From Enterococcus viikkiensis (GTDB lineage Bacteria; Bacillota; Bacilli; Lactobacillales; Enterococcaceae): DNA of 44,105 bases. The translations under genes and the position numbers were made by a program. This document shows, piece by piece, positions 3,291 to 38,071 of the stretch. The notes under the pieces were generated by a model. The model saw only the letters and a program-made list of their open reading frames with translations, was not told the origin of the DNA and searched no databases. Numbering within the stretch: the first letter of the stretch is position 1; each line of letters starts with the position of its first letter. The stretch spans positions 1 to 44,105 of the forward strand of contig NZ_BJDW01000019.1 in the NCBI RefSeq assembly GCF_005405345.1. Direction: 5' to 3'.

Positions 3291-3449
3291 ATGGGCAAGT
3301 ATAGTATTTCCACATTATTCGTTGTTTCTGCTCTTATATTTTTTAACAATCAAAAAAATCCGCTAAACGAAGAATCTCAACGTTTAACGGACATCAATTT
3401 CATATTGGCGGGAATGTGTGAGAATCGAACTCACCCAAGAAGCTCTTAA
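3291..3449 (+). pseudogene. Possible truncated third paralogue running into selC
   Basis: The ATG at 3291 follows AGGTGAG. The first 21 residues (KYSISTLF, then SALIFFNNQ) resemble the N-terminal helix of paralogues A and B (YILTSILY, then ASIFFTTQ). The frame then loses the YVGK/LNVR half and runs through the selC terminator and antisense to selC itself. It looks like a family member whose 3' half was lost where selC now lies. The alignment is short and by eye only. Confidence 0.3.
3352..3390 (-). terminator. Terminator of selC
   Basis: On the minus strand, arms CCGTTAAACG and CGTTTAGCGG (one G-T pair) surround an 11-base loop and are followed by a run of seven T. It sits 15 bp past the CCA end of tRNA-Sec. 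Confidence 0.8.
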
Positions 3450-34035: not shown

Positions 34036-35094
34036 TTAGGAGGCCTTTTTAGCGACTTTTTGCGTTTTTTTCTGTTGAATCAGCATTTGTACGCCTGAAA
34101 GGGTTTGCTTTAGCTCTGGTGTTAGCTGGTAATGGTCTACTAAATACTGTCTCGTTTTTTCCGTGAAGAATCCTCTCATAAAGGCAAAGAAGAAAGCTTC
34201 AGGATTTTTGACGGTTTTGTAACGATACATTTGTTCAATCGCTTTGGCTATCGCATCCGCTAGCTCTCCACGGAAGTAGTCATTATGCTCAAACGTTAAC
34301 ACATCGGACTCCGCCGGTAACCCGGCTTGAATAAATTGTTTCGTGCTTGCGAATTTGGCTTTAAAAATGGTGTCAACAAACCAGCGTGCTTTTTGATACT
34401 TGCCTTCACAAAAAGGCAGGAACCGTTGAAACGCTTGTTCCGGAATTAAATGAGCATAACGAGCACTTAGGGCCTGGATCAACGTTTGATCTTGAGAAAG
34501 GGTCGATGTCGAGGCTGGGACCGTTACATTTGTTGCATTTGTTATTGGTTTTACTAGGTGTTTTTGTGTACTTGTAAGCAAATTTTGCTTGTTCGTAGCC
34601 GCAGATTCTGCTTCTCTATCCACAGTGGATAACTTTTCGCTCTCGTCCGCTTTATTTTCCACAGGAACTAAAGATTTAGTGGTTGTATAGTTTTTAAAGG
34701 CCAGTTTCGGCAAAATGCCCTTTTCAGGTGCCAAAGGATTCGCCACATAAATTCGATAGTTCTTCAAGCCATGACGAAGAACTTGAATCAACCCAGCGTT
34801 CGTCAAGTTAGTTTTCAAATTGGTGATTTTTCTTTGTGATACGCGTAGCAATTCAGCTGCCTCTTCGTTAGAAAAATAAATGTACGGCAGTCCAGCTTCA
34901 TCCAGCCAATTCCCTTCTTTTTGAGAATTGTAAATACTGCAAGTCATACGCATGGTATATAACGCATGCAGCATCATTGCTTCAATAGAAAGTTGTTCAT
35001 AGCGGGGATTATTGATTAAATTCAAATCAATTGGGATATAATTTCCGTTGGGTAAGTTCGTTGCGGTCATGATGTTTGGTAAATTTGTGGACAT
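34036..35094 (-). CDS. repA: RepA_N family plasmid replication initiator
   Basis: A 352 aa initiator. The conserved N-terminal RepA_N domain (about 1-125) contains FSNEEAAELLRVSQRKITNLK, a winged-helix DNA-binding segment. A variable Ser/Thr/Asn-rich middle (about 125-210) and a host-linked C-terminal domain follow. AGGAGG eight bases before the ATG sets the start at 35094; the frame continues upstream from a GTG at 35163 but without such a site. In RepA_N plasmids the origin usually lies inside the rep gene. The palindrome TATCCACAGTGGATA at 34617-34631, in the variable middle, is a candidate. Expression appears to be under antisense RNA control. Confidence 0.95.
   Translation of the reverse strand: MSTNLPNIMTATNLPNGNYIPIDLNLINNPRYEQLSIEAMMLHALYTMRMTCSIYNSQKEGNWLDEAGLPYIYFSNEEAAELLRVSQRKITNLKTNLTNAGLIQVLRHGLKNYRIYVANPLAPEKGILPKLAFKNYTTTKSLVPVENKADESEKLSTVDREAESAATNKQNLLTSTQKHLVKPITNATNVTVPASTSTLSQDQTLIQALSARYAHLIPEQAFQRFLPFCEGKYQKARWFVDTIFKAKFASTKQFIQAGLPAESDVLTFEHNDYFRGELADAIAKAIEQMYRYKTVKNPEAFFFAFMRGFFTEKTRQYLVDHYQLTPELKQTLSGVQMLIQQKKTQKVAKKAS
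34617..34631. other. Candidate origin element inside repA
   Basis: A 15 bp perfect palindrome made of two overlapping near-DnaA boxes (CTATCCACA and AGTGGATAA). Nearby are the tandem 9-mers TTACATTTG and TTGCATTTG at 34524-34541. The position in the variable centre of repA fits the origins known for RepA_N plasmids. Confidence 0.45.
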
Positions 35095-35172
35095 GACAAA
35101 AACCTCCTTATTTAGTCTTTCATATTTATTAACGAAAGTTTTTAAAGGAATGCTTACTGTCACATTAACTAA

Positions 35173-35201
35173 TTGAGAAAATGTCCCAAATATGGTACAC
35201 T
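35173..35201 (+). promoter_or_regulatory. Promoter of the candidate antisense RNA
   Basis: -35 TTGAGA (35173-35178), 17 bp spacer, -10 TACACT (35196-35201) preceded by TGG, so also extended. It faces away from the repA start and into the repA leader. Confidence 0.7.
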
Positions 35202-35207
35202 TAATAA

Positions 35208-35330
35208 AGGTTAGGCAAACACCAATTTTTCTAACCCTTTAAAGATTTATTTGTATGTGACATGCTAATTCGCCAAAATTAGCTCAAACCTTTGAGTTTA
35301 AAGATCGCCAAATCTTTAAACTCTTTTTTT
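35208..35330 (+). ncRNA. Candidate antisense RNA controlling repA (about 120 nt)
   Basis: Starts a few bases after a good promoter and ends at a 12 bp perfect stem (GAGTTTAAAGAT arm) followed by TTTTTTT. Inside are three hairpins: AAAGGTTAG/CTAACCCTTT (35206-35240), GCTAATT/AATTAGC (35264-35283) and the terminator stem (35294-35323). The second and third have the identical six-base loop CGCCAA. The RNA is fully complementary to the 5' part of the repA leader. RepA_N plasmids such as staphylococcal pSK41 are known to limit Rep synthesis with an antisense RNAI. UUGGCG target loops are known from IncI-type replicons. No coding potential is seen. Confidence 0.7.
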
Positions 35331-35404
35331 CGCTTTTTTTTCTACATGTCTAGAATAATAGATTGAAACCCTATTGTAAAGCGATTCCTGAGCATCTTTT
35401 TTTA

Positions 35405-35735
35405 GAGTAAACTTTTTATTTGTTTGCAAAAGCAATTGTGGTTTACCGAAATATTGAAATAAAAACGAATAAGGTTTACTTTATTAAAGGATACAAAATC
35501 TGTTTTGGTAAACTCCAACTTAACGAAACATTCGTCCTCTTCTATCGAAGCTGTGGATAAAGAGTATGCTCGATAAGGCCTCTATTAGTTATCCACAGAA
35601 GAGAAATTGGACTCGCTTTCCTGCAAAAGTAAACTTTTTAAAGAAAATTAAGGTTAATAAAGGTAAACTGAAATATAAGATAACATAAAAAAAAGTAAAC
35701 CCCAATGTAGGATATAATCGACATTGAGGTTTACT
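35405..35735. repeat. Iteron group 2 (about 8 copies of AAAGTAAACT-like units)
   Basis: Copies in both orientations of the unit found upstream of parA (consensus AAAGTAAACT), for example near 35405, 35441, 35473, 35507, 35628, 35660, 35692 and 35726. They lie between repA and the repC-like gene. They probably bind the partition protein or RepA. Confidence 0.75.
35552..35597. other. Pair of inverted consensus DnaA boxes
   Basis: TGTGGATAA (35552-35560) and TTATCCACA (35589-35597) are perfect 9-mers in opposite orientation, 28 bp apart, within the AT-rich iteron region. They suggest that DnaA joins initiation or regulation here. Confidence 0.6.
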
Positions 35736-37146: not shown

Positions 37147-37781
37147 AAAGATTCTCCAATCATTAGTTCTCGTTTAAAGTTTACTATAAAACGGTTGAAA
37201 GAGCAATAAAGTTTACTACAATTGTTTTAATAAGGTAAACCACAATGACAAACTAAATTGAAGTACGCCTCAAAAATTGTATAATAAAAGTTTACTCTAA
37301 TTTTATAGTATAAGTAAACTTCAAATTGACTGATCAAAGACACTTTTTTAAAAAGTTTACCGCAAATATTATTAAAAGAGTAAGACTTTAATTAATAAAG
37401 TGTACTCTTAGATGAAATAAAGTAGACTCTATTATATGATAAAGTTTACTTGAATTTCATTTAGGTAAACTATATAAATGTTTAAATGCTTTTATTACAG
37501 TATTATATCATATAAAAAGTAAACTTTTAAATTAATCAAGTAAACCTAATTAAATTAAAAGGTCAACTCTTAAAAACATAAAAGTAAACTTATGTAATTG
37601 AAGTTTACTCAATTAAGTAGGGTTTAAAGTAAACATTTAAATGAGCATAATGAATAATAGATCTATAAGGTAAACCCTATAATTATTTAAAAAGTAAACT
37701 CTTTAAATTTGAGGTAAACGGTATTACAATCGTTTAGAGTAAACTTTTTATAAAATAGAAATAAAGTAAACTACAAAAAAC

Positions 37782-37823
37782 AAAAAGAAGTAAACTCTAT
37801 TTAATAAAGGTTTACTTCTTTTT
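37782..37823. terminator. Inverted iteron pair forming a terminator-like hairpin
   Basis: A 14 bp perfect stem (AAAAAGAAGTAAAC with GTTTACTTCTTTTT) around 14 bases, inside the iteron array, T-run ended on either strand. No gene abuts it. It may insulate the array from transcription. Confidence 0.55.
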
Positions 37824-38026
37824 GCGTTCTTTAAGGTTAGCCGGATCTAAGGGGGAATTCTTGGAATTAAAGTGTACTTTTTAAATGTTAGAATAGAAAA
37901 TTTTGATCATATAAAAAGTAAACTGTAAAAAACATATTAAAGTATACCGTATTAGGGAGAAGCGTGCTAGAATTCAAGCACTATCTAGCAGTTATTATGA
38001 CTATTGAAAGGAGGTTTACTTGAATA

Positions 38027-38061
38027 AAAGAAAAATCCAATGAGGTATACCTCATTGGATT
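38027..38061 (-). terminator. Terminator of the alcohol dehydrogenase gene
   Basis: A 28 bp perfect palindrome (38034-38061) with the iteron-like core GAGGTATACCTC is followed by TTTTTCTTTT on the minus strand, 11 bp after the stop. Confidence 0.8.
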
Positions 38062-38071
38062 AAAGTAAACT

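Follow-up and report, generated by a model that had tools for sequence, protein, structure and literature searches.

How a large plasmid of the Enterococcus avium group holds its own copying in check is the question raised by the leader of the repA gene described here. Judging from sequence comparison, the plasmid very probably does so with a small antisense RNA of three hairpins that carry near-identical loops. The window, by which we mean the whole stretch of DNA that was analyzed, is contig G000:C19 of Enterococcus viikkiensis with 44,105 bases, from a genome of 45 contigs and 2.55 Mb. RepA is assigned to the RepA_N initiators by a profile search against PF06970 (E = 4.8 × 10−12, 46.1 bits with a cut-off of 30), and its gene is the sole PF06970 gene found in the source genome. 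Beyond repA there is a gene for a 179-aa protein, here called gene X, which has no match in Pfam or NCBIfam, and then a gene for a ParA-type ATPase. The annotation of the E. raffinosus megaplasmid pCX012922 has repA, gene X and parA in this order as well. The interval from the repA start to gene X is taken up by the repA promoter, an antisense promoter and a hairpin array, and the features are as follows, with the basis of each in brackets.

34036 to 35094, minus strand: repA, RepA_N replication initiator of 352 aa (PF06970; relatives in 19 of 20 genomes of the genus)
35103 to 35109, minus strand: Shine-Dalgarno (SD) AAGGAGG of repA, forming with the start codon the element DW (sequence)
35144 to 35152, minus strand: anti-SD segment CATTCCTTT (SD pairing in predicted folds)
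35158 to 35165, minus strand: MID, ATGTGACA, whose partner is UP or the SD and start-codon region (UP-MID helix in 19 of 19 leaders; RNAalifold)
35173 to 35201, plus strand: antisense promoter TTGAGA-17-TACACT (scan; 19 of 19 leaders)
35208 to 35330, plus strand: predicted antisense RNA of about 123 nt with inferred ends (promoter, fold z-score of −3.95, terminator)
35209 to 35236, plus strand: antisense hairpin SL1, loop CACCAA at 35220 to 35225 (fold and alignment)
35255 to 35262, minus strand: UP, TGTCACAT, within the antisense target (UP-MID helix; RNAalifold)
35264 to 35283, plus strand: antisense hairpin SL2, loop CGCCAA at 35271 to 35276 (4 of 7 pairs compensatory, all in leader L042; loop invariant)
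35294 to 35323, plus strand: antisense hairpin SL3, loop CGCCAA at 35306 to 35311, an intrinsic terminator with its T-run at 35324 to 35330 (scan and alignment)
35352 to 35380, minus strand: repA promoter TTTACA-17-TATTCT (scan; 19 of 19 leaders)

The original prediction, made from the letters of the window, had placed two opposed promoters around a plus-strand RNA of roughly 120 nt with its own terminator, complementary to the repA leader. That anatomy is real: both promoters are correct in coordinates and sequence, and the RNA is present as a set of sequence features lying entirely opposite the leader. The loops also re-read as described, being TTGGCG for SL3, TTGGCG for SL2 and TTGGTG for SL1 on the mRNA strand. 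For the plus-strand RNA the predicted fold has the three hairpins and z = −3.95, a value that none of 200 shuffles equals, and the repA leader itself folds with z = −4.97. The terminator-like SL3 has a 12-bp stem, the loop CGCCAA and then T7, and its stem is the longest among 6 terminator-like sites, where 2.1 such sites are expected. A consensus scan finds 5 promoter-like sites in the region against 5.7 expected, which is not above chance, so that the case rests on the comparison between species.

A DNA search matched all 20 genomes of the genus, but the match in G014 (78% complete) is merely 39 bases long and lacks RepA; we therefore count the element in 19 of 20, in agreement with a RepA protein search that also gives 19 of 20. 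The named relatives among 14 loci include E. devriesei (RepA 93% identical), E. avium, E. raffinosus, E. pseudoavium, E. malodoratus, E. hulanensis, E. xiangfangensis, E. hermanniensis, E. pallens and E. dongliensis. In PLSDB, the 501-bp region finds 6 records at 84% to 87% identity, five E. raffinosus plasmids and one E. gilvus plasmid, all of 0.92 to 1.19 Mb. With the leaders anchored on their −35 boxes, every one of the 19 has a repA promoter of the form TTTACA-17-TAT(T/C)CT. The antisense promoter likewise recurs in all 19, with a −35 box of TTGAGA (18) or TTGAGG (1), a spacing of 17 nt and a −10 box of TA(T/C)AxT. The −10 version TACACT, found in the window and in L025, is a poorer match to consensus than those of the other 17 leaders. 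Mean column identity is 0.96 to 1.00 in the promoter hexamers versus 0.75 and 0.82 in the spacers; it is 1.00 in the SL2 and SL3 loops and just 0.82 in MID.

Loops and stems that vary among related replicons would, according to the original prediction, have spoken against it, and the 19 leaders show them to be conserved, which supports an antisense RNA with the repA leader as its target. On the mRNA strand the SL2 and SL3 loops are TTGGCG in every leader, while the SL1 loop is TTGGTG in 12, TTGGCG in 6 and TTGGCA in 1, so that 6 of 19 species have one and the same loop on all three hairpins. Stem pairing was counted over the 18 distinct rows that the 19 leaders provide. On the mRNA strand 95.8% of stem cells pair and 5 pairs have a double compensatory change; 0 of 500 shuffles attain any of five measures, and sliding the partners by 1 to 3 columns leaves 0 to 3 double changes and a covariation of at most 0.035, versus 5 and 0.047. 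On the antisense strand 98.4% of stem cells pair, with 0 to 2 double changes in the slid versions. Most of the covariation is supplied by L042 alone, the most divergent species, in which 4 of the 7 SL2 pairs are changed on both sides around an unchanged loop. In SL1 on the antisense strand pairing is broken in 6.5% of cells, partly by misalignment of L036, L041 and L042. The SL3 stem has 10 departures in 216 cells, each of which gives a G-U pair on the antisense strand but an A-C mismatch on the mRNA strand, so its cells are 100% paired on the former versus 95.4% on the latter. This pattern lends strand-specific support to a plus-strand RNA, although modest support, because few evolutionary events lie behind the 10 departures.

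The covariance search across RepA_N leaders that the original prediction had proposed did not reach beyond the genus. Covariance model R1, run with stricter filters, matched 19 of 105 Enterococcaceae genomes, all from the window's own genus, and within those 105 genomes other RepA_N leaders are out of reach by sequence. An Rfam search of the element gives zero matches at gathering score; the weak matches to tsr32 (21.3 bits with 98 needed), ceN109, ncS025 and IsrM fall below their gathering scores and were rejected.

In IncI and IncB plasmids such as ColIb-P9, replicons unrelated to this one, a distal CGCCAA in the same mRNA leader forms an activating pseudoknot. No CGCCAA partner for a pseudoknot is found on the mRNA strand from 35400 to 35090, which rules out pseudoknot control of the IncI type here. 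The IncI-type parallel drawn in the original prediction accordingly survives for the target loop, 5'-UUGGCG-3', which in ColIb-P9 and in the IncB/IncK Inc RNA/RNAI systems is bound by antisense RNA (available text of PMC10724649). Antisense control of the RepA_N kind has mainly been tested in plasmids of staphylococci, where it is known from the portions at hand of PMC8129170 and PMC5703833. The parallel to pSK41 RNAI, also part of the original prediction, holds in that pSK41/pSK1 RNAI is antisense to the rep leader about 100 nt above the translation start and has a model of ribosome-binding-site (RBS) sequestration, whereas pSK41 RNAI has about 83 nt and two hairpins (PMC5703833, in part). 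Closest is RNA1 of Staphylococcus aureus pSA564, which shares the RepA_N initiator, the antisense RNA inside the repA leader, the identical CGCCAA loop on the terminator hairpin, and mutually exclusive pairings around the ribosome-binding site, there named GG-up, CC-mid and GG-down. When three bases of the RNA1 loop were mutated, copy number rose to the same extent as when RNA1 was lost. RNA1 is shorter than 100 nt, with two hairpins and one CGCCAA loop named (all pSA564 points from the accessible part of PMC8129170), in contrast to about 123 nt, three hairpins and a loop that comes twice or three times on different stems in the present element of an E. avium-clade megaplasmid. Of the staphylococcal-type features, the RepA_N gene, the antisense promoter in the leader, the terminator hairpin and the CGCCAA kissing loop are found here as sequence, the last in 19 of 19.

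The candidate counterpart of those exclusive pairings in the present leader is the choice of partners for MID, which would follow the scheme described for pSK41/pSK1 and pSA564. All 19 leaders contain the UP-MID helix (p ≤ 0.025 in each when the MID segment is shuffled 200 times); both of its sides are changed in L042, and RNAalifold returns it unprompted. MID lies outside the antisense RNA and, together with the adjoining anti-SD segment, can alternatively pair with the SD and start codon, a MID-DW pairing that is weaker in L030, L037 and L039 to L042 than in the other leaders. Under equilibrium folding without antisense RNA, 17 of 19 leaders already have the SD paired at a probability of at least 0.68. 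Masking of the antisense footprint adds 0.1 or more to SD pairing in just 6 of the 19, and in L039 and L040 SD pairing falls. Since equilibrium folding gives no clean switch, any switch would be kinetic or co-transcriptional. When the whole antisense target is offered to MID, the pairing is not significant in the window (p about 0.12), and it is significant in L090, L118, L179 and L235, four of the five other lineages tried, but not in L143 (p about 0.6). A U-run of at least 5 follows the SD in 13 of 19 leaders, so that a terminator-like OFF hairpin is possible there and not general. The first switch candidate, UUUAAAGG with CCUUUAAA, was dropped when the leader comparison pointed to UGUCACA/UGUGACA instead.

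To ask how widespread the loop is, 119 RepA_N leaders of at least 200 nt were surveyed in 55 clusters defined by shared 8-mers, with 6 leaders from the avium clade. They come from Enterococcaceae, a Bacilli sample, a presumed Staphylococcus genus (f14/g31), families f5 and f8, and PLSDB. Left aside were L105, L107 and L174 (under 200 nt), L100 and L101 (unclear start codons), L131 and L193 (below the Pfam cut-off, as is L147, which was kept), L181 and L182 (extra copies beside L180), 13 of the 19 avium-clade leaders and some PF06970 places. With all hexaloops counted and no restriction to a motif, UUGGCG is the commonest, with 30 loops in 10 of 55 clusters, and the next hexamer reaches 5 clusters. 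UUGGCG is absent from six dinucleotide-shuffled sets, in which the best hexamer reaches 4 to 6 clusters. The ten clusters are four from Enterococcaceae (the window's included), four from f8, one from f5 and one from the presumed Staphylococcus genus. That genus is presumed from the pSA564-like leader L121, in which the 39-nt pSA564 probe R1 occurs, as given in the part of PMC8129170 at hand. Two other leaders of that genus, L116 and L167, have an inverted terminator loop with CGCCAA on the mRNA strand, and such an inversion might be one way in which a new incompatibility group arises.

The original prediction held that reuse of one loop in adjacent hairpins is unusual. It is rare in shuffled leaders, but not unique to this element. 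Neighboring hairpins share a 6-nt loop stretch with at least 2 G/C in 4 of 55 clusters, where shuffled leaders give a mean of 0.07 and a maximum of 1; at a setting of k = 5 with 2 G/C the count is 6 of 55 (shuffled mean 0.48, maximum 2), leaving 49 clusters with no shared loop. The 6 include L171, which was discounted as a plain repeat because both of its hairpins have the same sequence. Different stems with one loop are found in the avium clade (UUGGCG), in L118/L180 (UUGGCG twice), in L179 (UUAGAG twice), in L143 (three loops with UUCGCA) and in megaplasmids of Ligilactobacillus salivarius (GACCA twice, with ACCA in the third loop). L118 and L179 are separate leader clusters and yet related replicons, their RepA proteins being 61% identical over 147 aa; L143 RepA is 50% identical to that of the window. 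Among 9 further plasmid leaders, a loop is shared only in L239 (GUCAA, with the inner stems alike too), and UUGGCG occurs only in L235, a Jeotgalibaca plasmid (Carnobacteriaceae) with two different loops, UGAAUC and UUGGCG. Strict concerted loop change as a rule was rejected on the counterexample of L235 and on the 49 clusters. Loop identity is thus frequent in some lineages and is not a rule.

Two of these lineages have leaders with points of their own. The subfamily has a second enterococcal RepA, that of L143 and L202 (G041:C2, 293-kb contig), with three leader hairpins sharing UUCGCA, and a hairpin in that leader buries the Shine-Dalgarno before a U-run. In the repA leaders of L. salivarius-type megaplasmids (L090, L226 to L229, L203), GACCA is common to two loops and a terminator-like hairpin lies in antisense orientation; an antisense RNA is likely there also. 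L090 has a strong target-MID helix.

Computed loop-loop energies indicate which loops could meet. The antisense SL2 and SL3 loops can kiss every target loop in the window at −5.7 to −7.6 kcal/mol, and the antisense SL1 loop prefers its own target (−6.1 versus −2.9 kcal/mol). Within one strand the loop-loop energies are −2.5 kcal/mol or weaker, and on this ground neither dimerization nor intramolecular pairing through the loops, both raised in the original prediction, is supported. Co-folds of whole RNAs of like strand gain about 8 kcal/mol versus 146 for antisense plus target, and there may be some weak self-association by parts other than the loops.

Quite probably, this region controls the copy number of an E. 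avium-clade megaplasmid by means of antisense RNA, kissing loops and a UP/MID switch. What the leaders show directly is the anatomy, conserved and covarying, together with the complementarity of MID to UP and to DW; that both RNAs are transcribed, that binding takes place in the order given below, that the leader switches and that copy number responds is inferred from them. In the proposed mechanism, a constitutive plus-strand RNA of about 123 nt would bind the repA mRNA leader, beginning with loop-loop kissing of CGCCAA with UUGGCG at up to three hairpins. The bound RNA would cover UP, which would leave MID free to pair with the ribosome-binding region, so that no RepA is made, and in many species the freed MID could also form the terminator-like hairpin before the U-run. 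A higher plasmid copy number would then mean more antisense RNA and fewer initiations.

The hairpins might instead act solely in the repA mRNA, as an attenuator or for stability, with an incidental plus-strand promoter and no functional antisense RNA, as promoter counts no higher than chance would allow. We regard this as very unlikely, because the antisense promoter hexamers are kept at a fixed 17-nt spacing in 19 of 19 leaders around a variable spacer, and the SL3 substitutions favor the plus strand. A stronger competitor, still rather unlikely in our estimate, accepts the antisense RNA and assigns its main effect to a full duplex with RNase III-type cleavage, or to promoter interference, and not to masking of the RBS by MID. 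The pairing of the SD in both states in most leaders, by folding alone, speaks for it; the UP-MID and MID-DW complementarities are nevertheless kept, the former with covariation, and the precedents of pSK41 and pSA564 (as far as PMC5703833 and PMC8129170 are at hand) point to masking.

Within the preferred reading of a kissing antisense RNA, the identity of the loops allows two interpretations. Each hairpin may have arrived independently at a good kissing loop, UUGGCG, the identity itself being functionless; we judge the chances of this evenly balanced. UUGGCG is the favorite hexaloop of the surveyed leaders and single in most of them, it is the target loop of ColIb-P9 as well (PMC10724649, in part), and L235 has two different loops, all as independent arrival would have it, whereas the arrays with a different shared loop in L179 (UUAGAG, two copies), L143 (UUCGCA, three) and L. 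salivarius (GACCA, two) are not what it would lead one to expect. The other interpretation, which we offer tentatively and as somewhat improbable, is that the hairpins of Lactobacillales RepA_N replicons form a redundant code of unrelated stems and a shared loop. The loops (UUGGCG, UUAGAG, UUCGCA, GACCA) would tend to change together, any antisense loop would kiss any target loop, and the shared loop would set both binding speed and incompatibility group.

The predicted antisense RNA would be of the pSK41/pSA564 kind, and what appears new is the host group, the replicon and the three-hairpin anatomy with its repeated loop. In the open-licence literature, no antisense RNA of an E. avium-clade megaplasmid is found among the matches listed. 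An antisense RNA has reportedly also been described for the Bacillus RepN plasmid pLS32. The E. raffinosus megaplasmids of about 1 Mb were reported to have no identifiable replication initiator in the text available of PMC10323788, from which the word antisense is absent, and novel replicons were reported for them in that of PMC8650288, where the word occurs once. The E. raffinosus plasmid pCX012922 (L102) carries the present repA, annotated as 'replication initiator protein A'. Through this locus, these megaplasmids would have an initiator and a partition region, along with a candidate switch for copy number. The predicted element would also extend staphylococcal RepA_N antisense control to another genus, contrary to a 2017 review (PMC5703833, the part at hand), by which similar systems are apparently absent from RepA_N plasmids of other genera. 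UUGGCG is a recurrent, predicted kissing loop across RepA_N replicons of Bacilli that is found in the unrelated ColIb-P9 too. If the shared-loop arrays are functional, the change of incompatibility group in antisense replicons becomes testable; this hypothesis and the general claim on UUGGCG are the parts most worth testing.

Two other features of the contig are recorded here. GTTTACY has 39 copies in the 44,105-base window versus 10.5 expected, with 8 copies at 35406 to 35735, between the repA promoter and the end of gene X, and a dense array upstream of parA at 37179 to 38070. The partition genes are thereby flanked on both sides, and the arrays are likely a parS-like centromere. At 3406 to 25117, the same contig has a D-proline reductase cluster with prdA, prdC and a PrdB-like gene in which an in-frame TGA is read as selenocysteine, along with selA, selB, selD, tRNA-Sec and a proline racemase-like gene.
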